Shown here one piece after another: positions 2 through 63,499 of a stretch of DNA of 64,000 nt (position 1 is the stretch's first letter; each line of letters starts with the position of its first letter). The DNA comes from Psychrobacter fulvigenes (lineage in GTDB: Bacteria > Pseudomonadota > Gammaproteobacteria > Pseudomonadales > Moraxellaceae): positions 62,001 through 126,000 of the forward strand of contig NZ_CAJGZP010000001.1 of NCBI RefSeq assembly GCF_904846155.1, read 5' to 3'. The position numbers and the translations under genes were made by a program. Under the pieces are notes generated by a model, which was given only the letters and a program-made list of their open reading frames with translations, did not search any database and was not told the origin of the DNA.

Positions 2-814
2 CTCACCGAGGACTCCTTCTTCGATGAGAGCCGGCGGCTAGACCCCGCCGGCGCTGTCACCGCGGCGATCGAAATGCTGCGAGTCGGATCAGACGTCGTG
101 GATGTCGGACCGGCCGCCAGCCATCCGGACGCGAGGCCTGTATCGCCGGCCGATGAGATCAGACGTATTGCGCCGCTCTTAGACGCCCTGTCCGATCAGA
201 TGCACCGTGTTTCAATCGACAGCTTCCAACCGGAAACCCAGCGCTATGCGCTCAAGCGCGGCGTGGGCTACCTGAACGATATCCAAGGATTTCCTGACCC
301 TGCGCTCTATCCCGATATTGCTGAGGCGGACTGCAGGCTGGTGGTTATGCACTCAGCGCAGCGGGATGGCATCGCCACCCGCACCGGTCACCTTCGACCC
401 GAAGACGCGCTCGACGAGATTGTGCGGTTCTTCGAGGCGCGGGTTTCCGCCTTGCGACGGAGCGGGGTCGCTGCCGACCGGCTCATCCTCGATCCGGGGA
501 TGGGATTTTTCTTGAGCCCCGCACCGGAAACATCGCTGCACGTGCTGTCGAACCTTCAAAAGCTGAAGTCGGCGTTGGGGCTTCCGCTATTGGTCTCGGT
601 GTCGCGGAAATCCTTCTTGGGCGCCACCGTTGGCCTTCCTGTAAAGGATCTGGGTCCAGCGAGCCTTGCGGCGGAACTTCACGCGATCGGCAATGGCGCT
701 GACTACGTCCGCACCCACGCGCCTGGAGATCTGCGAAGCGCAATCACCTTCTCGGAAACCCTCGCGAAATTTCGCAGTCGCGACGCCAGAGACCGAGGGT
801 TAGATCATGCCTAG
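2..814 (+). CDS. sul1: Sulfonamide-resistant dihydropteroate synthase Sul1 (5' end cut by window)
   Basis: This drug-insensitive dihydropteroate synthase replaces chromosomal FolP in folate synthesis and so gives sulfonamide resistance. The reading frame is open from base 2, where LTEDSFFDESRR is read, and stops with TAG at 812-814. About 271 residues are visible; Sul1 is 279 aa, so only the first few codons lie outside the window. DHPS motifs are present: NDIQGF, DPGMGFF and SVSRKSFL. The protein matches remembered Sul1 almost throughout. It is followed at once by orf5, the usual order of the class 1 integron 3' conserved segment. The qacEdelta1, cassette and intI1 parts would lie to the left, outside the window. 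Confidence 0.97.
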   Translation, partial: LTEDSFFDESRRLDPAGAVTAAIEMLRVGSDVVDVGPAASHPDARPVSPADEIRRIAPLLDALSDQMHRVSIDSFQPETQRYALKRGVGYLNDIQGFPDPALYPDIAEADCRLVVMHSAQRDGIATRTGHLRPEDALDEIVRFFEARVSALRRSGVAADRLILDPGMGFFLSPAPETSLHVLSNLQKLKSALGLPLLVSVSRKSFLGATVGLPVKDLGPASLAAELHAIGNGADYVRTHAPGDLRSAITFSETLAKFRSRDARDRGLDHA

Positions 815-941: not shown

Positions 942-1442
942 ATGGACAGCGAGGAGCCTCCGAACGTTCGGGTCGCCTGCTCGGGTGATATCGACGAGGT
1001 TGTGCGGCTGATGCACGACGCTGCGGCGTGGATGTCCGCCAAGGGAACGCCCGCCTGGGACGTCGCGCGGATCGACCGGACATTCGCGGAGACCTTCGTC
1101 CTGAGATCCGAGCTCCTAGTCGCGAGTTGCAGCGACGGCATCGTCGGCTGTTGCACCTTGTCGGCCGAGGATCCCGAGTTCTGGCCCGACGCCCTCAAGG
1201 GGGAGGCCGCATATCTGCACAAGCTCGCGGTGCGACGGACACATGCGGGCCGGGGTGTCAGCTCCGCGCTGATCGAGGCTTGCCGCCATGCCGCGCGAAC
1301 GCAGGGGTGCGCCAAGCTGCGGCTCGACTGCCACCCGAACCTGCGTGGCCTATACGAGCGGCTCGGATTCACCCACGTCGACACTTTCAATCCCGGCTGG
1401 GATCCAACCTTCATCGCAGAACGCCTAGAACTCGAAATCTAA
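942..1442 (+). CDS. GNAT-family acetyltransferase, orf5 of the integron 3' conserved segment
   Basis: A 166-residue GNAT-fold N-acetyltransferase whose substrate is unknown. The acetyl-CoA binding region is seen around residues 90-105 (LHKLAVRRTHAGRGVSSALI), followed by a typical C-terminal YERLGF motif. It lies 127 bp after sul1 on the same strand, as in class 1 integrons, where it is known as orf5. It is not known to give resistance. It is GC-rich like sul1 and intact. I am confident of the identity from the sequence and the position. Confidence 0.93.
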   Translation: MDSEEPPNVRVACSGDIDEVVRLMHDAAAWMSAKGTPAWDVARIDRTFAETFVLRSELLVASCSDGIVGCCTLSAEDPEFWPDALKGEAAYLHKLAVRRTHAGRGVSSALIEACRHAARTQGCAKLRLDCHPNLRGLYERLGFTHVDTFNPGWDPTFIAERLELEI

Positions 1443-1764: not shown

Positions 1765-1916
1765 TGTCATTTTCAGAAGACGACTGCACCAGTTGATTGG
1801 GCGTAATGGCTGTTGTGCAGCCAGCTCCTGACAGTTCAATATCAGAAGTGATCTGCACCAATCTCGACTATGCTCAATACTCGTGTGCACCAAAGCGAGG
1901 TGAGCATGGCGACGGA
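1765..1916 (+). repeat. IRt end fragment of Tn402/class 1 integron, 152-bp copy
   Basis: The segment starts with TGTCATTTTCAGAAGACG, the outer end of the Tn402-type inverted repeat IRt, and runs 152 bp to the edge of IS6100. Its first 123 bp (1765-1887) occur again in inverted orientation at 2797-2919 on the other side of IS6100. This 152/123 arrangement is the signature of In4-type integrons. Confidence 0.92.
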
Positions 1917-2796
1917 GGCTCTGTTGCAAAGATTGGCGGCAGTCAGAGGTAGGCTGTCGCTCTGCGCCGATCAGGCGGCTGCTGCGAAATGGTGGTTGAG
2001 CATGCCCATGGCCTCCGTCAGCGCCGAGGGCCCAATGCCAAAAGCTCTCTCCACAAGGCGCACCTCGCCCCTGATGCCGGGCTGCAGGCACCAGGGGCGA
2101 GCCTGTCCTTTGCGCAGGGCTCGCATGACTTCGAATCCCTTGATCGTGGCATAGGCCGTGGGGATCGATTTGAAACCGCGCACCGGCTTGATCAGTATCT
2201 TGAGCTTTCCGTGATCGGCCTCGATCACGTTATTGAGATACTTCACCTGCCGGTGGGCCGTCTCCCGGTCCAGCTTTCCTTCGCGCTTCAATTCGGTGAT
2301 CGCTGCACCATAGCTCGGCGCTTTGTCGGTATTGAGCGTGGCAGGCTTTTCCCAGTGCTTCAGGCCTCGCAGGGCCTTGCCCAGGAACCGCTTCGCTGCC
2401 TTGGCGCTGCGGGTCGGCGACAGGTAGAAATCGATCGTGTCGCCCCGCTTGTCGACTGCCCGGTACAGGTAGGTCCACTTGCCCCGCACCTTGACGTAGG
2501 TTTCATCCAGGCGCCAGCTCGGATCAAAGCCACGCCGCCAGAACCAGCGCAGCCGCTTCTCCATCTCCGGGGCGTAGCACTGGACCCAGCGATAGATCGT
2601 CGTATGGTCGACCGAAATGCCGCGTTCCGCCAGCATTTCCTCAAGGTCGCGATAGCTGATCGGATAGCGACAATACCAGCGCACCGCCCACAGGATCACA
2701 TCACCCTGGAAATGGCGCCACTTGAAATCCGTCATCGTTCCGTCCGTCCAATCTCCGCCAAGCATGCTCAAGCTTCACGATTTTTGCAACAGAGCC
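1917..2796 (-). mobile_element. IS6100 (IS6 family), complete
   Basis: The element is 880 bp, the known IS6100 length, and is bounded by perfect 14-bp inverted repeats, GGCTCTGTTGCAAA at 1917-1930 and its complement at 2783-2796. It contains one intact transposase gene on the minus strand. IS6-family elements move by a replicative route that forms cointegrates and adjacent deletions, which fits the truncated integron end here. Confidence 0.97.
1971..2735 (-). CDS. tnpA: IS6100 transposase
   Basis: A DDE transposase of the IS6 family, 254 residues from MTDFKWRHFQGDV. Upstream in-frame ATGs at 2765 and 2771 would add 10-12 residues. The start chosen is the first that matches the conserved beginning of IS6-family transposases. 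The N-terminal helix-turn-helix region (YRDLEEMLAERG, DHTTIYRWV) is followed by the catalytic triad: D in RLDETYVKV, D in NTDKAPSY, and E in VIEADHGKLK with the usual K seven residues on. The gene is intact and probably active. Confidence 0.95.
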   Translation of the reverse strand: MTDFKWRHFQGDVILWAVRWYCRYPISYRDLEEMLAERGISVDHTTIYRWVQCYAPEMEKRLRWFWRRGFDPSWRLDETYVKVRGKWTYLYRAVDKRGDTIDFYLSPTRSAKAAKRFLGKALRGLKHWEKPATLNTDKAPSYGAAITELKREGKLDRETAHRQVKYLNNVIEADHGKLKILIKPVRGFKSIPTAYATIKGFEVMRALRKGQARPWCLQPGIRGEVRLVERAFGIGPSALTEAMGMLNHHFAAAA

Positions 2797-2919
2797 CACA
2801 CGAGTATTGAGCATAGTCGAGATTGGTGCAGATCACTTCTGATATTGAACTGTCAGGAGCTGGCTGCACAACAGCCATTACGCCCAATCAACTGGTGCAG
2901 TCGTCTTCTGAAAATGACA
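2797..2919 (-). repeat. IRt end fragment, 123-bp inverted copy (outer end of integron)
   Basis: This is the exact inverted copy of 1765-1887 and ends in TGACA at 2919. It is the outer boundary of the In4-like integron. The sequence from 2920 on (CCTTG) is outside the integron, so a 5-bp target duplication of CCTTG should lie beyond IRi if the integron inserted intact. Confidence 0.9.
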
Positions 2920-3282
2920 CCTTGCCTGACATCCAGTTAGGGTATAGCTCAGGCTGACATCCAAGCAGGACGCCCTACTCAGGGTTGACTCGCAGTAATT
3001 ACCCTCTTCCTGTAGACTGTCGCGGCCATTGAGTTACCAAAGACACTCGATAAGACCTCATGCTTACCCTGCAAAACATGATCTGGCTGCCTACGCCGCC
3101 ATAGCGCTTCGCCCCCCGCATCATCTGTGACTGCTTGCTCTGCCAGCGGTCGCGCTCTGCTGTGCTTTCGGTTTCAACACCCGCCACAGCCCCCCTACAT
3201 CCGACAATTTGACCTCATATCGACCAGTTGCACATGGCCTGCGCCATGCTGCGCTGCGTGATCCATTGCCTTGGGAATTCTG
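2920..3282. other. Intergenic segment between integron end and SulP gene
   Basis: This stretch of about 360 bp is GC-rich like the cargo genes that follow. I recognise no protein, inverted repeat or RNA in it. Short open frames on the minus strand lack family likeness. It probably holds the promoter of the sup operon and a relict of the transposon backbone into which the integron inserted. Confidence 0.4.
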
Positions 3283-4770
3283 ATGCTCCACTCGTTAAAA
3301 CAAACCTGGTTATCCAACATCCGTGGCGACATCCTCGCCGGTATTGTGGTCGCACTGGCCCTCATCCCTGAAGCCATCGCTTTCTCGATCATTGCCGGGG
3401 TTGACCCCAAGGTCGGCCTGTACGCCTCTTTCTGTATCGCCGTGGTGATCGCCTTTGTCGGTGGCCGACCCGGAATGATCTCGGCCGCAACCGGGGCCAT
3501 GGCACTGCTGATGGTGACCCTGGTCAAGAATCATGGTCTCGAATACCTGCTGGCCGCCACGCTGCTATGTGGTGTTTTACAGATCGCTGCTGGGTACCTG
3601 AAGCTCGGCTCACTGATGCGCTTCGTCTCGCGCTCGGTGGTGACCGGCTTCGTCAATGCCCTGGCGATCCTGATCTTCATGGCTCAGCTACCCGAGTTAA
3701 CCAACGTCACCTGGCACGTCTACGCCATGACAGCCGCAGGCCTCGGCATCATCTATCTGTTCCCCTACGTCCCCAAGATCGGCAAGCTCATCCCATCGCC
3801 GCTGGTGTGCATCATCGTGCTGACCGCCGTCGCCATGTCGGTTGGGCTAGATATCCGCACGGTCGGCGATATGGGCCAACTGCCCGATACGCTGCCAATC
3901 TTCCTCTGGCCTGACGTGCCGCTGACGTTCGAGACGTTGGCCATCATCTTCCCTTACTCGGCAGCACTGGCCGTGGTCGGTCTGCTGGAGTCGATGATGA
4001 CCGCGACCATTGTTGACGACCTGACCGACACCCCCAGCGACAAGAACCGCGAGTGCAAGGGCCAGGGCGTGGCCAACATTGCTTCGGGTCTGCTCGGCGG
4101 TATGGCCGGCTGCGCGATGATTGGTCAGTCGATCATCAACGTGAAATCCGGTGGTCGTTCGCGCCTGTCGTCCCTTGCCGCAGGCGTATTCCTGCTGCTG
4201 ATGGTGGTGTTCCTCGGCGACTGGTTGAAGCAGATCCCGATGGCGGCGCTGGTGGCAGTGATGATCATGGTGTCCATCGGCACCTTCAGTTGGGATTCGC
4301 TGCGCAACCTGAAGAAGCATCCGCTGTCGACCAACATTGTCATGGTCGTCACCGTGGTGGTCGTGGTCGCCACCCATAACCTGGCCTTCGGCGTGCTGGC
4401 CGGCGTGCTGCTGGCCGCGATGTTCTTCGCCAACAAGGTTGGCCATTACATGGCGATCAGCTCTTCGCTGGACGAAGCCGGCGAGCATCGTAGCTATAAC
4501 GTCACCGGCCAGGTGTTCTTCAGCTCAGCAGACAAGTTCGTCGCGGCCTTCGACTTCAAAGAAGCCCTGAACAAGGTAACCATCGACCTGAATCGCGCCC
4601 ACTTCTGGGATATCACCGCCGTTGCCGCTTTGGACAAAGTGGTCATCAAGTTCCGCCGCGAAGGCACCGAAGTCGAAGTGCTGGGCCTCAACGAAGCAAG
4701 CGCCACTATCGTGGATCGCTTCGGCGTTCACGATAAACCCGACGCCATTGATCAACTCATGGGCCACTGA
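3283..4770 (+). CDS. sup: SulP-family inorganic anion (sulfate) transporter
   Basis: A 495-residue SulP/SLC26 membrane transporter, probably for sulfate or bicarbonate. The N-terminal part has many hydrophobic segments with the SulP region [19 protein letters not shown] near residue 17. The C-terminal 110 residues form a cytoplasmic STAS-like domain ([22 protein letters not shown]). ATG 3283 is chosen because GGGAA precedes it at a good distance; a TTG at 3271 would add four residues. It is the first gene of a tight operon with a universal stress protein. The same sup-usp pair is known in Acinetobacter resistance islands, where its benefit is unclear. Confidence 0.92.
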
Positions 4771-4784
4771 GAAGGAGAACAACA

Positions 4785-5636
4785 ATGAACCACATAATCG
4801 CCTGTATCGACGGTTCCGCCTCGGCCCCAGCCGTGTGCGACTATGCGGCCTGGGCCAGTCTGAGCCTGGAAGCCCCGTTGACCTTCCTGCATGTGCTGGA
4901 TCAGCGCCAGTACCCGGTTGCACCGGATCTGAGTGGCAATATCGGCCTTGGCAGCCGCGAGCACCTACTCGATGAGCTTGCTTCCCTGGATGAACAGCGC
5001 GGCAAGTTGGCCCTGGAGCAGGGGCGGATCATGTTAGCGGCCGCGAAAGAGCGGGCCATGAAGGATGGTGTGGCCGCACCGGAGTCCAAGCAACGTCATG
5101 GCGATCTGCTGGAGAGCCTGCAAGAGCTGGAAAGCGAAACGCGCCTACTGGTCATCGGTCGCCAGGGCGAGTCTAGTGGAGGCCTGAGTCAGCATGTCGG
5201 AAGCCAGCTGGAAAGCGTGATTCGTGTCATGCACCGGCCGATCCTGGTCACCCCGACCAGCTTTCAGAAGCCCCAGAGCGCAATGCTGGCCTTCGATGGC
5301 AGTGCTACTACCCGCAAGGGTGTGGAGATGCTGGCAGCCAGCCCCCTGCTGAAGGGACTACCGATCCACCTGGTCATGGTCGGGCCCGTGAACGACGAGT
5401 CGTCGGCGCAGCTGGACTGGGCGCAAAAAGTGCTGCTCAACGCCGGGTTCACTGTTCGTGCCGAGACCCTGAGCGGTGAGATAGAGCCTACCCTGCACGC
5501 CTATCAGAAAGAGCATGGCATTGATCTGCTGGTGATGGGGGCCTATGGCCATTCCCGTATCCGGCAGTTCCTGGTCGGAAGCACCACGACCAGCATGCTC
5601 CGCACCACCACCAGTCCGCTGTTACTGCTGCGCTAA
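4785..5636 (+). CDS. uspA: Universal stress protein with two Usp domains
   Basis: A 283-residue cytoplasmic protein of two tandem Usp domains, the first at about residues 1-150 and the second at about 155-283. The ATP-binding pattern GxxGx9G(S/T) is clear at the C-terminus (GAYGHSRIRQFLVGSTT), with a similar GRQGESSGGLSQHVGS in the first domain. It starts 14 bp after the SulP stop with AGAAGGAG upstream of ATG, and its TAA overlaps the ATG of the next gene. Genetic coupling suggests a role in sensing or regulating the transporter, but this is inference. Confidence 0.93.
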   Translation: MNHIIACIDGSASAPAVCDYAAWASLSLEAPLTFLHVLDQRQYPVAPDLSGNIGLGSREHLLDELASLDEQRGKLALEQGRIMLAAAKERAMKDGVAAPESKQRHGDLLESLQELESETRLLVIGRQGESSGGLSQHVGSQLESVIRVMHRPILVTPTSFQKPQSAMLAFDGSATTRKGVEMLAASPLLKGLPIHLVMVGPVNDESSAQLDWAQKVLLNAGFTVRAETLSGEIEPTLHAYQKEHGIDLLVMGAYGHSRIRQFLVGSTTTSMLRTTTSPLLLLR

Positions 5637-5995
5637 TGGCCATGGACGACGCCCTCGATCTTGCCCATTTCAAGACCCTGCTGGAACAGCGGGCTGCCGA
5701 GCTGGATCGATTGCTGGAAGACGCTGAGTCTCGCTCGCAATCGGTAGAGCTGGATCAAGGCAAGGTAGGGCGTTTGTCGAGGATGGATGCACTCCAGCAG
5801 CAAGCAATGAACGATGCCATCCGCAGTCGGGCGCAGCATGAACGCGTCCGCCTCCAGCTGGCCCTCAAGCGTTGGCACGAGGGTGAGTATGGCTGGTGTA
5901 ACCAATGCGGCGAGTTGATCGCCTCAGGCCGCTTGGAATTCGATCCGGCCACGCCACTGTGCATCACCTGTGCCAGCCGCGTCGAGTCGGGTTGA
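5636..5995 (+). CDS. DksA/TraR-type C4 zinc-finger protein
   Basis: A 119-residue protein with an N-terminal coiled-coil-like region (about residues 5-80) and a C-terminal zinc ribbon with Cys88, Cys91, Cys109 and Cys112. Members of this family enter the RNA polymerase secondary channel and alter transcription. It is shorter than DksA (about 150 aa) and longer than TraR (73 aa). Its ATG overlaps the Usp stop codon (TAATG), so it is translationally coupled. It probably acts as a regulator carried with the operon. Confidence 0.88.
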   Translation: MAMDDALDLAHFKTLLEQRAAELDRLLEDAESRSQSVELDQGKVGRLSRMDALQQQAMNDAIRSRAQHERVRLQLALKRWHEGEYGWCNQCGELIASGRLEFDPATPLCITCASRVESG

Positions 5996-6040
5996 AACCA
6001 CCGCGCGGCGCGCTGCATCTCCCAATTAACGAGGTCTCTG

Positions 6041-7003
6041 ATGTATTCGATGGCTAAACACTGGCTGGGCCGAACACGGAAAGCAAGTGCTTGGATGTGG
6101 GTGCTGTTGTGCCTTGCCCTGCTCGCCGTATTCCAAGTCCGCACCCATCACCTTGATGATCGTTTGTACTTCTGGATCAAGACCCACTGGCACACCGATG
6201 ATTGGCAGGAGCGCTCTGTGTGGCTGCCTGACTATCGGGTTGAGCTGGATGCTAAGCCGGTTCCAGGTGTGGACAACAATCTTTCGGGCCTGACCTTCGA
6301 CCCTGACCTAAACCTGCTGTGGGCGGTCACCAACGGCCCAAACGAACTATTGGCCCTCAGTCGTGACGGTGATGTGGAAAGACGTTACAGCCTGGATGGC
6401 TTCCACGATGTGGAGGCGGTGTCCTATGCCGGCAACGGCCAGCTGGTAATCGCCGAAGAGCGCCGGCAGAGCCTGGTTGTCGTGGATGTCCCCATCGCTG
6501 AAGACGGTAAACTTTCTCCTGATCGACCATTGAGCCGAGACCAGTATCCAGCTCTGACCCTGGCGCTTGGCAAGGAGGACAACAAAGGCCTTGAAGGGCT
6601 CGCCTACGACCTGAAAGGCGACCGCCTGTTTGTGACCAAGGAGCGTGACCCCCGCCAATTGCTGGAAGTGGGCGGCCTTCGTGCCAGCCTGGCAGGAGGT
6701 TTTTCCCTGCACGTCCGCGACCTGTCCAGCTTGGTAAAGGACAAGGTGTTTGCGACTGACTTATCTTCGGTCGTCTTCGACCAACAGAGTGGCCATCTGA
6801 TTCTGCTCAGTGACGAGTCGAAACTGCTGATTGAAATGACCGACGAGGGCAAAGTGGTGAGTTTCCGCTCCCTGGCGAGAGGGTTTGCTGGTTTGCTGAA
6901 GGGCATACCCCAGGCCGAAGGCGTAACCATCGACGATGAAGGGTATTTGTACGTGGTCAGCGAGCCGAACCTGTTCTATCGCTTTAGCCGCGAGACAGAT
7001 TAA
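6041..7003 (+). CDS. SdiA-regulated/YjiK-like beta-propeller protein
   Basis: A 320-residue protein with one N-terminal membrane segment (about residues 19-34, WVLLCLALLAVFQV) and a large extracytoplasmic part. The repeats (NNLSGLTFDPDLNLLWAVTN, KGLEGLAYDLKGDRLFVTKE, EGVTIDDEGYLYVVSEPN) are those of the SdiA-regulated/YjiK family, a six-bladed propeller of unknown function. The start at 6041 has GAGG seven bases upstream. It is the last gene of the sup-usp-dksA/traR-yjiK cargo and ends 45 bp before a transposon inverted repeat. Confidence 0.88.
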   Translation: MYSMAKHWLGRTRKASAWMWVLLCLALLAVFQVRTHHLDDRLYFWIKTHWHTDDWQERSVWLPDYRVELDAKPVPGVDNNLSGLTFDPDLNLLWAVTNGPNELLALSRDGDVERRYSLDGFHDVEAVSYAGNGQLVIAEERRQSLVVVDVPIAEDGKLSPDRPLSRDQYPALTLALGKEDNKGLEGLAYDLKGDRLFVTKERDPRQLLEVGGLRASLAGGFSLHVRDLSSLVKDKVFATDLSSVVFDQQSGHLILLSDESKLLIEMTDEGKVVSFRSLARGFAGLLKGIPQAEGVTIDDEGYLYVVSEPNLFYRFSRETD

Positions 7004-7048
7004 CCGGTCAACAAGCTACAGTCGGGCGTGGTCGGGACGCTTGCACTG

Positions 7049-7085
7049 TTAGCGTACGATTTTTTCCGAATTCTGCGGGCTCCCC
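7049..7085 (-). repeat. Terminal inverted repeat of a Tn501/Tn1721-type (Tn3 family) transposon
   Basis: Read on the minus strand the segment begins GGGGAGCCCGCAGAATTCGG and ends ATCGTACGCTAA. This matches the 38-bp end shared by Tn21-subgroup transposons such as Tn1721 and Tn501, apart from the last base. The outer GGGG edge faces right, so the transposon body lies to the left and includes the cargo operon and integron. No second copy was found in the window. The next base starts an interrupted transposase gene, so the element inserted there. Confidence 0.85.
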
Positions 7086-7427
7086 TTCCACGGGGTGTTC
7101 GCACCCAACAGTCGGCACCGGGCGTTGGTCACGCCGGCAAAACGGGGCAGGGGCAACAAGGTCAGGGTGGCTGATGAACCGGCAACACCAGCACAACGGC
7201 GAGCGTCGATGACATGGGCGCAACGGCTCAAGCGTGTTTTCAATATCGACATCGAGACCTGCAGCGGCTGCGGCGGCGCCATGAAAGTCATCGCCTGCAT
7301 TGAAGACCCTATAGTGATCAAGCAGATCCTTGATCACCTGAAGCACAAAGCCGAAACCAGCGGGACCAGGGCGTTACCCGAAAGCCGGGCGCCACCGGCT
7401 GAGCTGCTCCTGGGTCTGTTTGACTGA
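7086..7427 (+). pseudogene. 3' end of an IS91/ISCR2-type transposase gene, interrupted
   Basis: The frame reads FHGVFAPNSRHRALVTP at its start and later IETCSGCGGAMKVIACIEDP, the usual C-terminal region of IS91/ISCR rolling-circle transposases with a CxxC pair. It ends with TGA at 7425-7427. About 113 of some 490 residues remain; the HUH catalytic part is missing because a Tn3-family inverted repeat abuts it at 7085. Its place before an oriIS-like end, glmM and sul2 points to ISCR2 (also called ISVsa3). Confidence 0.85.
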
Positions 7428-7640
7428 CGAGCCTGAAGGCCAACGATACCAATCAAAATGCTGCGTTCACAGCGCCGCGGCAGGGATCCGCCGTGCTGGT
7501 TGTCGGAAAAGGAGCCGCTAGTGGGAAAGAGGAGGGTAAATTTTCAGCGTTGCTGGCTCCCCGTCAGCCGGATTGGGTTGCATCGCAGGGGTGTCGAAAG
7601 AGTCAACTGCGGTCCAAAGCTGTTGGACTTGGGTGAAAAG

Positions 7641-7664
7641 GGCGTTTATTCTTCCTATACGTTG
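7641..7664 (+). mobile_element. oriIS-like end of the ISCR2 element
   Basis: The motif GCGTTTATTCTTCCTATACG closely resembles the oriIS reported for ISCR elements (GCGTTTGAACTTCCTATACG in ISCR1, from memory). It lies about 215 bp downstream of the transposase stop codon, the usual distance. The adjoining sequence changes at once to truncated glmM, which marks the end of the element. Confidence 0.75.
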
Positions 7665-7905
7665 TCGGCAGCGGGCCAAAAAGGAATACGTCCATGCCCA
7701 TCGAGGTGAAACCGGCTGTGAGCGCGGGTTCAAGCATATAGCCCGACAGGCGCGTATCCTTGCCGATCACGACACGATGGCGGTGGTCACCGCGACGAAA
7801 GACACGGCCAGCCGCCATGCCGACGCGCAAGGCGGTTTCCGCCGTCATCGCGCCTTCGTTGGCTTTGCCACGAATACCGTCTGTGCCGAAATATTTGCGC
7901 ACCAT
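7665..7905 (-). pseudogene. glmM: Truncated phosphoglucosamine mutase
   Basis: The minus-strand frame starts [16 protein letters not shown] and is recognisable as the N-terminal 80 or so residues of GlmM up to FLFGPLPT. It then runs into ISCR sequence and loses homology. GlmM makes glucosamine-1-phosphate for cell-wall synthesis; this fragment lacks the catalytic serine loop and is non-functional. Its start lies 86 bp after sul2, preserving a folP-glmM gene order from an unknown ancestral chromosome. Confidence 0.93.
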
Positions 7906-7991
7906 AAGGTCGATTATCCTGTCGTCGGGTCGCCCTCAAAGGGGACATGCCTGCTGAACCGCGAATATAGAGAAATATCCCGAATGTGCAG

Positions 7992-8807
7992 TTAACGAAT
8001 TCTTGCGGTTTCTTTCAGCGCCGCCAATACCGCCAGCCCGTCGCGCAAGGGGCGCGGCTCGTGTGTGCGGATGAAGTCAGCTCCACCTGCGGCGGCGGCA
8101 AGCTCTGCAGCGAGTGTCGCGGCCCCGACATCCCCCGGACCACGGCCTGTGAGCGCGCGCAGAAAGGATTTGCGCGAAACAGACAGAAGCACCGGCAAAT
8201 CGAAGCGCAGCCGCAATTCATCGAACCGCGCCAGCACCGAGAGCGAGGTTTCGGGAGCAGCCCCCAGAAAAAACCCCATGCCGGGATCAAGGACAAGGCG
8301 GTTGCGTTTGATACCGGCACCCGTCAGCGCCGCGATGCGCGCGTCAAAGAACGCCGCAATGTGATCCATGATGTCGCCAGCGGGTGCCTCGCGCCGATCT
8401 GCCTGCCCGTCTTGCACCGAATGCATAACGACGAGTTTGGCAGATGATTTCGCCAATTGCGGATAGAACGCAGCGTCTGGAAAACCGCGAATATCATTGA
8501 GATAGGCCACACCACGCGACAAGGCATAGGCTTGCGTCGCGGGTTGATAACTGTCGAGCGAGACGGGAATGCCATCTGCCTTGAGCGCGTCCAGCACCGG
8601 CGCGATACGCGCGATTTCTGTGTCGGACGAAACAGGCGCGGCGTCGGGATTGCTGGATGCCGGACCGAGGTCGATCACATCTGCCCCCTCGGCCATCAGC
8701 TTACGCGCCTGCGCAATGGCTGCGTCTGGCGCCAGATACCGGCCTCCATCGGAGAAACTGTCCGAGGTTATGTTGACGATGCCGAAAATGATGAGCGATT
8801 TATTCAT
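7992..8807 (-). CDS. sul2: Sulfonamide-resistant dihydropteroate synthase Sul2
   Basis: A complete 271-residue Sul2, beginning MNKSLIIFGIVNITSDSFSDGG. It carries the DHPS motifs NDIRGF, DPGMGFF and SVSRKSFL. It replaces the sensitive FolP and confers sulfonamide resistance. The gene is followed by truncated glmM and an ISCR2 oriIS-like end. It is the second sulfonamide-resistance gene in the window. Confidence 0.98.
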   Translation of the reverse strand: MNKSLIIFGIVNITSDSFSDGGRYLAPDAAIAQARKLMAEGADVIDLGPASSNPDAAPVSSDTEIARIAPVLDALKADGIPVSLDSYQPATQAYALSRGVAYLNDIRGFPDAAFYPQLAKSSAKLVVMHSVQDGQADRREAPAGDIMDHIAAFFDARIAALTGAGIKRNRLVLDPGMGFFLGAAPETSLSVLARFDELRLRFDLPVLLSVSRKSFLRALTGRGPGDVGAATLAAELAAAAGGADFIRTHEPRPLRDGLAVLAALKETARIR

Positions 8808-9110
8808 GGGGGCTTCTATAATAATAATAATCGAGCATGAGTCTCATACGGATGCTCGGGTCGAAAGGGAATCCCCAGGCGAGTAACCTGTTTGCGGTGA
8901 TCCATTAGCTGCAGGAGCAGAATAGCATACATCTGGAAGCAAAGCCAGGAAAGCGGCCTATGGAGCTGTGCGGCAGCGCTCAGTAGGCAATTTTTCAAAA
9001 TATTGTTAAGCCTTTTCTGAGCATGGTATTTTTCATGGTATTACCAATTAGCAGGAAAATAAGCCATTGAATATAAAAGATAAAAATGTCTTGTTTACAA
9101 TAGAGTGGGA
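8808..9110. other. Plasmid-type sequence upstream of sul2 and probable island boundary
   Basis: The region contains the TTATTATTATTATAG run just before sul2, a GAGCAT/ATGCTC inverted repeat at about 8834-8858, and an AT-rich stretch up to about 9110. From memory this is the segment found before sul2 in RSF1010 and related sul2 contexts. After about 9110 the sequence resembles the chromosome. The exact junction cannot be fixed without the uninterrupted site. Confidence 0.5.
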
Positions 9111-9209: not shown

Positions 9210-9947
9210 CTACAGAAAATGTAATAGTAAACGGCCTATAGAGTTGACCAAGTCGCGACTATAGGTTGCTAACCACTTATTCGCTTCTTTATCAAAATGA
9301 GAGTCGCTAAACGAATTACGAGAGTTTGCGATAGCGCTTGTTAGTGTAGAAATGCTTGTAACCATTAGAACGGGATAATTGCCTTTATTCGATAATTTAG
9401 AGTTTATATCGTCACGAACGATTTTTGATAAAGGTATTAAGTCTGTCACGTTTATGCTTGTTGGTACGTGTTTACGAATATAAGATTTATAAAGTCCTTC
9501 TAAACATGTATATGATAATGTCATCGCATAATCATAATTTGAAATATCAATTGCATTATCAATTTTTGACAGCATTGAGTTAAGCTTGTCAGAGCTCCAT
9601 TGCTGATTGGGTATTTTTGCTTTTGGGACTGGTTGAGCATTACCAAATAGATATGCTCTTAAATCCTGAGCCTCATTTGGGAAATGTGGCTCTACAATAT
9701 CTATAAATGCACGAAAAACTTCAAAGCGAACAGGTTCTTCTAGTTCTTTTAATATATCCCAGTAGAAGTCCTTTCTACTTGTACTTTTATTCAAGCGCTT
9801 ACGTTCTTCAATATATAGTGAGTAATCGGGCAATCCGCGATCAAAGTTTTGTACTACTTTAATAAACTCAGAGCCACTATGGTAGGCTGGAGTTTCAGCT
9901 TTATTCAATATGTTAAATAAATGACTGTAAGCGGATATCCATTGCAT
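9210..9947 (-). CDS. Abi_C/HEPN-like protein, possible abortive-infection factor
   Basis: A 245-residue soluble protein with low GC compared with its neighbours. The C-terminal half resembles the abortive-infection C-terminal (Abi_C) family. A helix with CLEGLYKSYIRKH (about residues 148-160) is followed, after a loop, by ANSRNSFSDSHF (about 207-218). R210-N211 and H217 form an Rx6H pattern, the motif of HEPN ribonucleases. No antitoxin-like partner or restriction gene is adjacent. A defence role is inference from family likeness only. It is the first chromosomal gene next to the resistance region and could itself have been acquired. Confidence 0.6.
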   Translation of the reverse strand: MQWISAYSHLFNILNKAETPAYHSGSEFIKVVQNFDRGLPDYSLYIEERKRLNKSTSRKDFYWDILKELEEPVRFEVFRAFIDIVEPHFPNEAQDLRAYLFGNAQPVPKAKIPNQQWSSDKLNSMLSKIDNAIDISNYDYAMTLSYTCLEGLYKSYIRKHVPTSINVTDLIPLSKIVRDDINSKLSNKGNYPVLMVTSISTLTSAIANSRNSFSDSHFDKEANKWLATYSRDLVNSIGRLLLHFL

Positions 9948-44003: not shown

Positions 44004-46025
44004 ATGATCGAATTTAAAGACGTTAGTGTTCGCCGTGATGGCCGTGAATTATTTTCTGGTGCTAGCTTTCAGCTGCATCCAGGCCACAAGGTTGGCTTAA
44101 CGGGCAATAATGGTACAGGCAAATCTACACTATTTGCCTTATTACTGACGCAAATGGGCACAGGTGATACCGAAGTCACCGTCGATCGCGGAGAGGTGAG
44201 CATTCCTGATACTTGGCAGGTGGCACATATGGCGCAGGAAGTTGGCGCAAGCGCGCAAACGGCGATTGACTATGTGCTGGGTGGTGACGAAGAGTGGTAT
44301 GAGCTCAACGAAGCAATGAGCGACTTGAGTACGGTCAGTGATGAGCAGATTGGAGTGTTGCATCAGCGGTTTGATGAAATCGATGGTTATCGTACGCCCA
44401 CCAAAGCGGCACAAATCATGGCGGGCCTTGGCTTTAATACGACGCAACATGAGCTGCCAGTAGAAGGGTTTTCAGGTGGTTGGCGTATGCGTTTGAATCT
44501 GGCGAAGACGTTGATGAGCCGTGCAGATTTGTTATTGCTCGATGAGCCAACCAACCATTTGGATTTGGATGCGATTTTATGGCTTGAGACTTGGATCAAT
44601 CAATTTGAAGGGTTGGTCATCGTCATCTCACACGATCAGGCATTCTTAGATGCCACAGTCGGTCACATCTTGCACGTCGAACAGCAAAAAATCACATTAT
44701 ATACCGGTAATTATCAGCAGTTTATTCGCACCCGTCATGAGCGTATGGCGCAGCAGCAGCAGGCGTATGAGAAGCAGCAAGAAACGCGGGCATATTTAGA
44801 TGACTTTATTCGTCGCTTCCGTGCTAAGGCCAGTAAAGCCAAGCAAGCACAGAGCCGTATCAAGCAGCTAGAGCGTATGGCGGATCTATCACCAATGATG
44901 GCGGATAACCCGTTCTCCTTTAAGTTTTATGAGCCGGCACACATGAGTAGCCCACTGATTGAACTGACTAAGGCTGATATTGGCTACAGTGATACGCCGC
45001 TATTGTACAATGCCAATGTGCAAGTAACTCCCGATACACGGCTTGGGCTGCTCGGTATGAATGGCGCTGGTAAATCAACTTTGATCAAAGCCTTGGTTGG
45101 TGAGCTGGGCGTGCTGTCTGGGACCTACACCGTATCTGATACGCTCAAACTTGGTTACTTTAATCAGCATCAAATGGATACCCTAGATGCCGAAGCGACG
45201 CCAATGGAGATGCTGCGCCGCTTGGCGGGCAAGACTTCCGACGCGTTATTGCGCTCATTCTTGGGTAGTTTTGACTTCCGCGGTGAGCGTATTGATACGC
45301 CAAGCAAGCTATTCTCGGGCGGTGAACGTGCTCGTTTAACCTTGGCATTGATTGTCTGGCAACGTCCAAATGTCTTAGTACTTGATGAGCCAACCAACCA
45401 TTTAGACTTACAAATGCGTCAAGCTTTGACGTTGGCGTTGCAAGGTTTTGAGGGCGCAGTCGTTCTGGTCTCGCATGATCGTGAACTGATTGCCAATGTC
45501 TGCGATGAGCTATACCTTGTCCATGATGGCAAGATTGAAGAGTTCGATGGTGATATCAGCGACTATGGTAAATGGCTGAGCGACAAACGCAAACAAGAGA
45601 ATGCGCCAGAGAAGAACACTGGTAAGAAGAAAAGTAAAAAAGAGAGTAAGAAGTTTGTTTCACGTGAAACAAATAACAGTCAAGTAAGCAATAAAGCATC
45701 TGCTACGTCAGAAAAGACCAAAGCCGCGCAGCCAACGCTTAGTAAAGAAGAGCAGCGCAAGCTGGCCGCTGAACAGCGCAAGCTGACCGCACCTGTCCGC
45801 CGTGACATTGAAGAGACAGAAAAGACTTTGGCTAAGATTGATAAACAGCTGATTGCTCTTGAAGAAAAGCTTGCCGATACTGACCTTTATGAAGAGAGCC
45901 GAAAAACAGACTTATTAAAGTTGCTTGATGAGCAAACGGAGCTGCAACAACAGCATGGCGACAATGAAGAAAAGCTATTGCTTGCCATGACGACTTTAGA
46001 AGAGATGGAAGCCAGTTTTGAGTAA
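44004..46025 (+). CDS. ABC-F family ATPase (YheS/Uup type)
   Basis: A 673-residue ABC-F protein without membrane segments. Two nucleotide-binding domains are seen, Walker A GNNGTGKST and GMNGAGKST, signatures FSGGWRMRL and FSGGERARL, and Walker B LLLDEPTNHLD and LVLDEPTNHLD. They are joined by the ABC-F linker (RTRHERMAQQQQAYEKQ). The C-terminus has a Lys/Glu-rich tail and coiled coil. ABC-F proteins act on ribosomes; this resembles YheS-type housekeeping members, not a dedicated resistance gene. The tail coding region contains a perfect parS palindrome. Confidence 0.9.
   Translation: MIEFKDVSVRRDGRELFSGASFQLHPGHKVGLTGNNGTGKSTLFALLLTQMGTGDTEVTVDRGEVSIPDTWQVAHMAQEVGASAQTAIDYVLGGDEEWYELNEAMSDLSTVSDEQIGVLHQRFDEIDGYRTPTKAAQIMAGLGFNTTQHELPVEGFSGGWRMRLNLAKTLMSRADLLLLDEPTNHLDLDAILWLETWINQFEGLVIVISHDQAFLDATVGHILHVEQQKITLYTGNYQQFIRTRHERMAQQQQAYEKQQETRAYLDDFIRRFRAKASKAKQAQSRIKQLERMADLSPMMADNPFSFKFYEPAHMSSPLIELTKADIGYSDTPLLYNANVQVTPDTRLGLLGMNGAGKSTLIKALVGELGVLSGTYTVSDTLKLGYFNQHQMDTLDAEATPMEMLRRLAGKTSDALLRSFLGSFDFRGERIDTPSKLFSGGERARLTLALIVWQRPNVLVLDEPTNHLDLQMRQALTLALQGFEGAVVLVSHDRELIANVCDELYLVHDGKIEEFDGDISDYGKWLSDKRKQENAPEKNTGKKKSKKESKKFVSRETNNSQVSNKASATSEKTKAAQPTLSKEEQRKLAAEQRKLTAPVRRDIEETEKTLAKIDKQLIALEEKLADTDLYEESRKTDLLKLLDEQTELQQQHGDNEEKLLLAMTTLEEMEASFE
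45656..45671. promoter_or_regulatory. parS site (perfect consensus)
   Basis: TGTTTCACGTGAAACA is the exact 16-bp consensus bound by chromosomal ParB in many bacteria. The surrounding bases extend the palindrome to 20 bp (45654-45673). It falls inside the ABC-F gene, in the segment coding FVSRETN of a variable linker, where sequence is free to vary. Confidence 0.82.
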
Positions 46026-61819: not shown

Positions 61820-63499
61820 TTATTTGATATCAATCAGTAAGCTGCGCGCGTGATCACGGGTGACATCAGTGATGGTCACACCGCCTGACATCCGTGCCAG
61901 CTCATCTACCTGGGCATCTTTATCCAATATCACCAACTCGCTTTGGGTTTGTTCATGATGATGCTTTTGTACCAAAATATGCTGATGCGCTTGCGCGGCA
62001 ACCTGTGCTTGGTGGGTAATGGCTAATAGTTGCTGCGTCTGTCCTAGCGCACGCAATAGCTCGCCAACGACTTGCGCGGTGCCGCCGCTGATACCGACAT
62101 CGACCTCATCGAATACTAGCATGGGTTTGGCGGCATTGTTATCGGCATTGGTCGCTTGCAATACTTGCATCACTAGTGCCATTCGTGACAGCTCACCGCC
62201 TGAGGCAATCTTATGTAGTGGCTGCATTGGCATGCCAACGTTGGCACTAAAGAGCAAGTCGATATCAAAGCAACCTTGGGCACTGTAGACGCTAGGGTCT
62301 GCTTTTTTGGTAAAGACGAACTCGCAGCGTGCATTGGGCAGGGCAAGCGGCTGCAATTGTTCAATAAGCTGCGCGCAGATACTCGGTGCGGCTTTTTCGC
62401 GCTTTTTATTCAGTTCAGTTGCTCGTTTGAGATATGCTTGCCAAGCGTCATCAATTTGTGCCGCCATTGCATCGCTACTGGGCTCGTTCTCTAATTGTTC
62501 TAGCTGTTGTTGCCAAGCTTTCGCTTCAGCGATTAAGTCGACTGCTGGCAAGCTATGCTTGCGCGATAAGCGGTGACCAAGGCTGATAAGGTTGTCTAAC
62601 TCTTGTAAGCGTTCAGGGTCTGGCAGTTGCTGCTCAGCATAGTCCGAAAGTAGAGCAGTCACTTCAGTAATTTGCTGCTGTGCCAAATGCAGTTGCTCAG
62701 ATGCTTGCCCAAAGGTTTGACTGACACCGATTTGATGGTTACACAACTTGATGGCTTGACCAAGCAAGGTCATGACGTCAGGCTCATCAGTATCATTGTC
62801 AAGTAAATGCAGGCCATGACTGGCCTCTTGCATCAAAGCTTCAATATTGGACAGCTCCTCGTGCTCCGCTTCAATATCATGATAATCGACAGCCAGTAGC
62901 GGTGCGATATCAGCCAGTTGACTTTGGAGTAGCTCGATACGGTCTTGGCGCTGCGCTTCTCGGCTGGCTAGCTCATCTGCTTGGCGTTTGAGCTGTTGAT
63001 AGTGTTGATAGCTACTGGCTGTTTGTGCTGCTAATGTCGTCAGCTGCGCCATTTCATCCAGCCATTGCACCACGAACTGCGGCTTGAGTAGCGCCTGCTG
63101 TGCGTGTTGGCTATGAATGTTGACGAGTAGTGTGCCAAGACTTTTTAGCTCAGCCAGACTGACTGGCGTACCATTCAGCCAAGCTTTTGAGCGACCATTG
63201 CTACTTAATTGCCGACGAATCAATACTTCTGGCTCATCCAAAGAGCGATCATGCGCGGCAAACCACTCTGCCACCACAGTATTGTCTGCTACATCAAATT
63301 GCGCGTAAATATCTGCATTTGCAGCACCATGTCTTACCATCGCGCTGTCTGCTCGGTCGCCTACACATAGTGCTAATGCATCGAGTAGTAGTGACTTGCC
63401 AGCACCAGTCTCACCGGTAATGACATTAAAGCCCTCAGCAAAGCTCAGCTCATGCTCACTAATGAGTGCAAACTGGTATAAGGTTAGTGATAACAGCAT
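61820..63499 (-). CDS. recN: DNA repair protein RecN
   Basis: A 559-residue SMC-like ATPase for double-strand break repair. Walker A is GETGAGKSLLLDAL at about 31-44, followed by long coiled coils and the C-terminal signature ASGGELSRMALVMQVL with Walker B LVFDEVDVGISGG. ATG 63499 follows GAGG; a TTG one codon upstream opens the longer frame. Confidence 0.96.
   Translation of the reverse strand: MLLSLTLYQFALISEHELSFAEGFNVITGETGAGKSLLLDALALCVGDRADSAMVRHGAANADIYAQFDVADNTVVAEWFAAHDRSLDEPEVLIRRQLSSNGRSKAWLNGTPVSLAELKSLGTLLVNIHSQHAQQALLKPQFVVQWLDEMAQLTTLAAQTASSYQHYQQLKRQADELASREAQRQDRIELLQSQLADIAPLLAVDYHDIEAEHEELSNIEALMQEASHGLHLLDNDTDEPDVMTLLGQAIKLCNHQIGVSQTFGQASEQLHLAQQQITEVTALLSDYAEQQLPDPERLQELDNLISLGHRLSRKHSLPAVDLIAEAKAWQQQLEQLENEPSSDAMAAQIDDAWQAYLKRATELNKKREKAAPSICAQLIEQLQPLALPNARCEFVFTKKADPSVYSAQGCFDIDLLFSANVGMPMQPLHKIASGGELSRMALVMQVLQATNADNNAAKPMLVFDEVDVGISGGTAQVVGELLRALGQTQQLLAITHQAQVAAQAHQHILVQKHHHEQTQSELVILDKDAQVDELARMSGGVTITDVTRDHARSLLIDIK

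Follow-up and report, generated by a model that had tools for sequence, protein, structure and literature searches.

A Tn1403-like transposon with a class 1 integron inserted in the sul2-proximal ISCR2 of a GIsul2-type island in Psychrobacter fulvigenes

How did a Tn3-family inverted repeat come to lie within an ISCR2 transposase gene beside sul2 in Psychrobacter fulvigenes? A preliminary description, made from the letters of the DNA alone, had read this junction as a Tn21-subgroup transposon, itself carrying an integron, that had inserted into a rolling-circle element linked to sul2. We followed up this reading on the assembly as given (3,465,773 bases in five contigs). The window, meaning the whole stretch of 64,000 nucleotides that was analysed, corresponds to positions 62001–126000 of contig NZ_CAJGZP010000001.1 (C1). 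The features discussed are collected in Table 1; for some stretches the corresponding L009 coordinates are also given.

The 37-bp repeat was searched as a pattern across all 3,465,773 bases, with up to three mismatches allowed. It occurs at exactly two sites, both perfect and mutually inverted, while the reversed pattern, used as a control in the same search, gave 0 matches; a chance repeat was rejected on these two counts. One site (IRR) is where the preliminary description had located it, with its outer edge to the right. The other (IRL) is the partner that had been predicted, as a 38-bp repeat, to lie to the left; the two ends are equal throughout their 37 bases and diverge at the 38th. ISCR2 sequence does begin at the base after IRR, and from there 577 of 577 bases equal the intact ISCR2 of the same contig. 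The predicted TTCCA duplication is present at both outer edges, and its left copy closes the expected 5′ part of the interrupted ISCR2, directly before IRL. When the 5′ and 3′ pieces were mapped singly onto the intact ISCR2, they overlapped by exactly these five bases. Therefore, the transposon is 17,801 bp long between its repeats and is flanked by a real five-base duplication. That a Tn1403-like transposon entered the ISCR2 copy nearest sul2 by ordinary Tn3-family transposition is thus confirmed, and no evidence was counted against the insertion itself.

The preliminary description had itself raised the alternative that some ISCR2 variant natively carries the yjiK–repeat–transposase junction as a fixed structure, with no transposition involved. 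We found no point that supports it. Uninterrupted ISCR2 is present on the same contig and in plasmid R485, the five-base overlap marks a duplication, and the junction was unmatched outside its own genome in all the collections searched. There were 0 exact matches in genome_contigs and viral_contigs, and of the 105 genus genomes searched just one, the genome's own, gave an exact match, leaving 104 without. At 80% query coverage or more, nothing matched either in 5,426 E. coli genomes, where the best place listed covered 71% of the query and was 85% identical, or among the best 5000 plasmid records; records of this genome may be absent from genome_contigs, viral_contigs and the E. coli and plasmid collections. 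A native arrangement thus has next to no probability.

Table 1. Positions of the features discussed, in window or contig (C1) coordinates
Feature	Position	Strand	Evidence or remark
guaA	C1:30914-32533		attL core GAGTGGGA at C1:32522 in guaA 3′ end
Intact ISCR2 transposase, 497 aa	C1:44813-46306		Uninterrupted; its start lies 5.3 kb upstream of the interrupted copy
Interrupted ISCR2, 5′ part	C1:49935-51284		1350/1350 identical to intact copy
IRL, perfect partner of IRR	C1:51285-51321, outside window	+	Repeat search, end comparison
sul1, 3′ part, in 3′-CS	window 2-814, start left of window	+	NCBIfam Sul1, 567 bits on 74-814 (cut-off of 600 is for the whole protein; gene open at left edge of window)
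orf5 GNAT gene of 3′-CS	window 942-1442	+	NCBIfam GNAT, 35 bits, below cut-off
Inner IRt copy beside IS6100	window 1765-1789	+	25-bp motif match at 1765
IS6100 transposase	window 1971-2771	-	NCBIfam IS6 family
Outer IRt, integron right end	window 2895-2919	-	End comparison
CCTTG, integron target duplication	window 2920-2924, partner C1:55002-55006 left of IRi	.	Flank comparison
sup, SulP transporter	window 3271-4770	+	NCBIfam sulP, 280 bits, below cut-off 380; SulP annotation in matching plasmids
uspA, universal stress protein	window 4785-5636	+	Annotation of corresponding plasmid genes; no NCBIfam match
dksA/traR-like gene	window 5636-5995	+	NCBIfam DksA_like and others below cut-offs; plasmids annotate TraR/DksA
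yjiK, SdiA-regulated domain	window 6041-7003	+	Pfam PF06977, 3.2e-88
IRR of Tn1403-like transposon	window 7049-7085 = C1:69049-69085	-	Repeat search, end comparison
TTCCA target duplication	window 7086-7090, partner C1:51280-51284	.	Flanks of both repeats
Interrupted ISCR2, 3′ part	window 7086-7662, coding end 7427, reaches glmM′	+	577/577 vs intact copy C1:45965-46541; R485 alignment
Truncated glmM	window 7663-7905	-	Pfam PGM_PMM_I on ORF 7603-7905
sul2	window 7992-8807	-	NCBIfam Sul2, 615 bits, above cut-off
attR core GAGTGGGA, island right end	window 9103-9110 = C1:71103	+	Core search, plasmid match ends

The tnpA and tnpR genes, which had been expected leftward, lie beside IRL and outside the window. 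The former encodes a 988-aa Tn3-family transposase (1278 bits in the profile search); the latter is a 224-aa ORF whose serine-recombinase matches all stay below cut-off. Over the 719 bases compared, the DNA of this region has 100% identity with Pseudomonas aeruginosa plasmid pBJ86, where a recombinase is annotated. The available excerpts of PMC10311859 and PMC6399125 define Tn1403-type elements by their backbone gene order together with a class 1 integron in the res region. Here we found paired inverted repeats with a duplication, tnpA-tnpR at IRL and sup-uspA-dksA-yjiK at IRR, and the transposon is by gene order a Tn1403-type element; Tn1403 itself (AF313472) was compared by description only. 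The insertion into the sul2-linked ISCR stands as first described, with the name refined from Tn21 subgroup to Tn1403 type. Tn21 or Tn1721 proper was rejected as the best name, since the cargo and gene order match Tn1403 as reported.

The left half of the transposon (C1:51285-55006; L009:7285-11006) is 97.6% identical to pBJ86 and 93.3% identical to pXM8-2, and matches Shewanella algae plasmid pKC-Na-R1 at 77–79% in pieces only. The right half (window 2920-7085) is 100% identical to pKC-Na-R1 over 4,166 bases, 99.95% identical to pXM8-2 and 93.3% identical to the other 10 P. aeruginosa plasmids among the matches listed; the sup annotation comes from the plasmids with the 100% and 99.95% identical right halves. 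A search of 105 genomes of the genus with the right half gave matches in 104; among the matches listed, those other than at this locus were 64–74% identical and inside the sup part, presumably reflecting chromosomal SulP genes. Three left halves paired with one right half suggest, from these comparisons, that halves may have been exchanged around res or the integron.

It could be argued on this basis that the present element is not what jumped, because homologous recombination or reassortment at res or the integron has since replaced part of it, and that the 17.8 kb need not be one unit. The nearest relatives do differ for the tnpR region, the left half and the right half. However, the TTCCA pair around the transposon and the CCTTG pair around the integron indicate that the present ends of each belong together, and any reassortment may well predate the jump into ISCR2. 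We consider it improbable that part of the element was replaced after it jumped.

Within the transposon, the integron extends from IRi at C1:55007 to the outer IRt, and CCTTG stands outside both ends. Profile searches gave the gene families AAC(6′)-Ib, DfrA1, class D beta-lactamase, CatB and AadA; the intI1 end is 99.8% identical to pBJ86, where IntI1 is annotated, and in the S. algae plasmid the gene following sul1 is annotated GNAT. The inner IRt was found with a 25-bp IRt motif. The layout, from IRi through to sul1-orf5-IRt-IS6100-IRt with a 5-bp duplication, is that of what we take to be the In4 type. The arms at window 1765-1887 and 2797-2919 are 100% inverted repeats of 123 bp, and the sequence between them (window 1888-2796) has a 100% identical but oppositely oriented counterpart, annotated IS6100, in the S. 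algae plasmid. The orientation of IS6100 is thus reversed relative to an otherwise matching plasmid, and the inverted arms could allow flipping.

Two genes of the integron were observed separately. The class D beta-lactamase (C1:59112-59894; L009:15112-15894) shares 95.8% identity with a protein encoded by three Providencia plasmids; its best NCBIfam subfamily is OXA-50 with 328 of 580 bits, far below cut-off. A truncated integron integrase of 137 aa, separate from intI1, lies just before the dfrA1-like gene (C1:57805-58218; L009:13805-14218), and the stretch around it (L009:12957-15100) was covered to at least 80% in 0 of the 3,897 plasmid records with a match.

In pBJ86, the transposon sequence continues past the CCTTG point and that plasmid's own integron begins 14 bases further; this site is therefore ordinary backbone there. 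In pKC-Na-R1, whose left half is quite different, IRt is followed by the same CCTTG as at the integron–sup junction here. Since that junction is shared with the S. algae plasmid, the transposon probably already held the integron when it entered ISCR2. The nesting of integron, Tn3-family element and ISCR2-sul2 that had been proposed is present, although the nested arrangement by itself is no proof that the integron came first. By gene order the integron lies in the res region, and resolution of cointegrates may be impaired.

The intact ISCR2 copy has Pfam Y2_Tnp and Zn_Tnp_IS91 domains and is 100% identical to a stretch of R485 annotated ISVsa3, which we take to be the same element as ISCR2. 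In the interrupted copy, the transposon cuts the coding region close to the end of the Y2_Tnp domain. The remaining 5′ ORF is 397 aa long, its last 11 codons lying inside the repeat, and its Y2_Tnp match reaches profile position 175 of 183 (179 for the intact copy); the 3′ ORF has no Pfam match. Relative to R485, a catA13-like segment, a truncated clade-Ia ISCR and the second ISCR2 have been gained exactly at the boundary between ISCR2 and glmM′. The sequence between ISCR2 and the opposed clade-Ia ISCR (C1:46542-48300; L009:2542-4300) has 41% G+C and carries the gene for a catA13-like chloramphenicol acetyltransferase. Used as query, this segment matches a Campylobacter jejuni plasmid at 93.5% identity along 38% of its length; only three plasmid records match it, none over 80% of its length. 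The second ISCR2 copy starts at C1:49934/49935 (L009:5934/5935), in island DNA, where it is joined to the truncated clade-Ia ISCR; of the 2,455 plasmid records that matched its left junction, none covered 80% or more of the query.

Leftward up to and including the intact ISCR2, 14,016 bases are 100% identical to R485, where an integrase, AlpA, a RepA-type helicase, RepC, TrbJKL, ars genes, a recombinase and the ISVsa3 transposase are annotated. Available excerpts of PMC9376610 give the GIsul2 order as int-alpA-repA-repC-trb-ars-recombinase (resG)-CR2-glmM′-sul2, with the truncated glmM between CR2 and sul2 as here. The backbone was assigned to GIsul2 because its order equals this one; the name itself is absent from the R485 record. 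On the sul2 side, window 7086-9109 has one mismatch to R485 in 2,024 bases. The island is thus integrated at a GAGTGGGA core in the guaA 3′ end and has the int-alpA-rep-trb-ars-resG-CR2 backbone, but in place of an uninterrupted CR2-glmM′-sul2 end it holds the extra block and the transposon. Therefore, we describe it as a GIsul2 derivative and not as the classical form. The linkage of the ISCR element to sul2 in the preliminary description holds; its description as a rolling-circle element was refined to part of a GIsul2-type island, for which mobility by a tyrosine integrase has been demonstrated.

Four att cores were located, at C1:32522, 44690, 50005 and 71103, and those at 44690 and 50005 each lie upstream of an ISCR2. 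The bases before the core are common to the attLR and attR cores (10 of 11) and not to attL. Further GAGTGGGA cores without att context occur in the region at C1:48373, 57496 and 72276, so the core by itself is weak evidence. At the right end, matches on the sul2 side stop at window 9114 in the 12 plasmids listed and at 9109 in R485. guaA was sought in 30 genomes of the genus and matched in 29, one of them this genome; of the 28 relatives, 11 were examined for attB. In 10 of these 11 guaA loci the attB core GAGTGGGA stands at the guaA end, and a stem motif resembling the one to the right of attR was seen within 160 bases in 4 of 11, most clearly in one. Among 105 genomes of the genus, only this one gave a match to the GIsul2 int. 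A chromosomal protein of the window has its closest matches in Psychrobacter, the best being 93% identical to one of P. coccoides, which places the host in that genus. Just to the right of the island, window 9210-9947 holds a 245-aa ORF with no Pfam or NCBIfam match; the 1 kb of DNA around it is 97% identical in one listed relative and 84% in another.

The DNA itself shows that the transposon and the integron were inserted, where the island ends and where its four att cores lie; from this we infer the time order of events. A GIsul2-type island would first have integrated at the guaA 3′ end of a Psychrobacter chromosome through its tyrosine integrase. Its CR2-sul2 end would then have gained the second ISCR2, the catA13-like segment and the truncated clade-Ia ISCR, before the 17.8-kb Tn1403-like transposon, with its In4-type integron in res, jumped into the sul2-proximal ISCR2. 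On this reading the island integrase could excise 21.1 kb between attLR2 and attR, comprising the 5′ ISCR2, the transposon, the 3′ ISCR2, glmM′ and sul2. We hold this account, from the guaA island and the added block to the Tn3-type jump, with high confidence as the best explanation of the locus, and the interpretation of the preliminary description is supported overall.

Four segments are predicted to be excisable: 38.6 kb (attL–attR), 26.4 kb (attLR1–attR), 21.1 kb (attLR2–attR) and 5.3 kb (attLR1–attLR2). Segments between attL and attLR were left out because, in the excerpts of PMC9376610, the corresponding circle was not detected. According to the same excerpts, Int suffices given att sites but excision is rare, wild-type excision being detectable by nested PCR, and the unit tested was ∼5.7 kb as judged from plasmid sizes. 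The published GIsul2 integrase moves the attLR–attR unit without the ISCR2 transposase, so the transposon may travel as a passenger of the integrase, and interruption of the ISCR2 copy should not stop Int-dependent movement. The inference is weakened by the need for nested PCR to see wild-type excision, by the 21.1-kb unit being about four times larger and by the weakness of the core alone as evidence. We therefore put the chance that the GIsul2 integrase can excise, from this composite island with four att cores, a 21.1-kb circle with the whole Tn1403-like transposon, the integron and sul2 at slightly under even.

Rolling-circle transposition of ISCR2, rather than the GIsul2 integrase, might instead have placed the ISCR2-sul2 segment and be what will move it. 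Two ISCR2 copies, identical where compared and co-oriented with foreign DNA between them, are the usual ISCR picture, and the intact copy could act in trans. However, the sul2 segment ends at the attR of the guaA island, and the published mobility (PMC9376610, in the excerpts available) requires int and not rcr2, deletion of int having abolished integration of GIsul2 and CR2-sul2 while deletion of rcr2 was without effect. In addition, the second ISCR2 copy starts ∼70 bases upstream of terIS, as positioned in those excerpts, which is unexpected for a transfer that ends at terIS. Rolling-circle transposition thus appears unlikely here, and the integrase of the island is the preferred agent.

Should such excision occur, a Tn3-family transposon that interrupted its ISCR2 target would have become cargo of a tyrosine integrase, and one otherwise mainly known from Pseudomonas could reach bacteria with the attB core in guaA. 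The locus offers a natural case for asking whether an interrupted ISCR2 transposase gene still allows the integrase to move its CR2-sul2 unit. It also documents, junction by junction, the assembly of a resistance region by nesting, from integron to transposon to ISCR2 to integrative island. The 2022 survey of complete genomes, in the excerpts of PMC9376610, found gamma-proteobacterial GIsul2 only in two Acinetobacter species and Enterobacterales; a GIsul2 derivative is now placed in Psychrobacter, beyond those hosts.

Literature searches for GIsul2 together with Psychrobacter found nothing, no paper among the matches listed joined GIsul2 and Tn1403, and none of the titles listed for Psychrobacter with class 1 integron, sul2 and transposon was on such an island. 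Among the papers listed on ISCR2, sul2 and glmM, Psychrobacter was named once, in one paper. Each layer of the stack has been described before (Tn1403-like elements, In4-type integrons, ISCR2-sul2, GIsul2), but no second example of the combination was met in the collections searched.

Each layer can be compared with its known counterpart. The transposon shares its backbone order and the res-region class 1 integron with Tn1403 and relatives such as Tn6393 and Tn7483 (Tn3 family), but differs from these relatives in host (Psychrobacter) and target (ISCR2), and its right half is, unlike theirs, the variant common to S. algae pKC-Na-R1 and pXM8-2. Whereas Tn1403 is reported with Tn5393c in uspA or dksA, both genes are without an insertion here. 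With In4-type integrons, the integron has in common IRi, the 3′-CS (sul1, orf5) and IS6100 between two IRt ends, but its cassette content departs from them in the divergent OXA and the fragment of a second integron integrase.

The nearest analogue found of a guaA island with two ISCR2 is GIflu-1 of Vibrio fluvialis, which, in the available excerpts of PMC13418153, likewise has the GAGTGGGA core and, interspersed with its resistance genes, two copies of ISCR2. Its authors distinguish it from GIsul2, as it is without the CR2-sul2 unit, and its resistance region, as quoted in those excerpts, is without Tn1403, in contrast to the island described here. GIsul2 of S. flexneri 2457T, with the same order in R485, shares the guaA site, the backbone through sul2 and the att cores with our island, but it has three att cores, whereas four are present here, with 38.6 kb between the outer ones.
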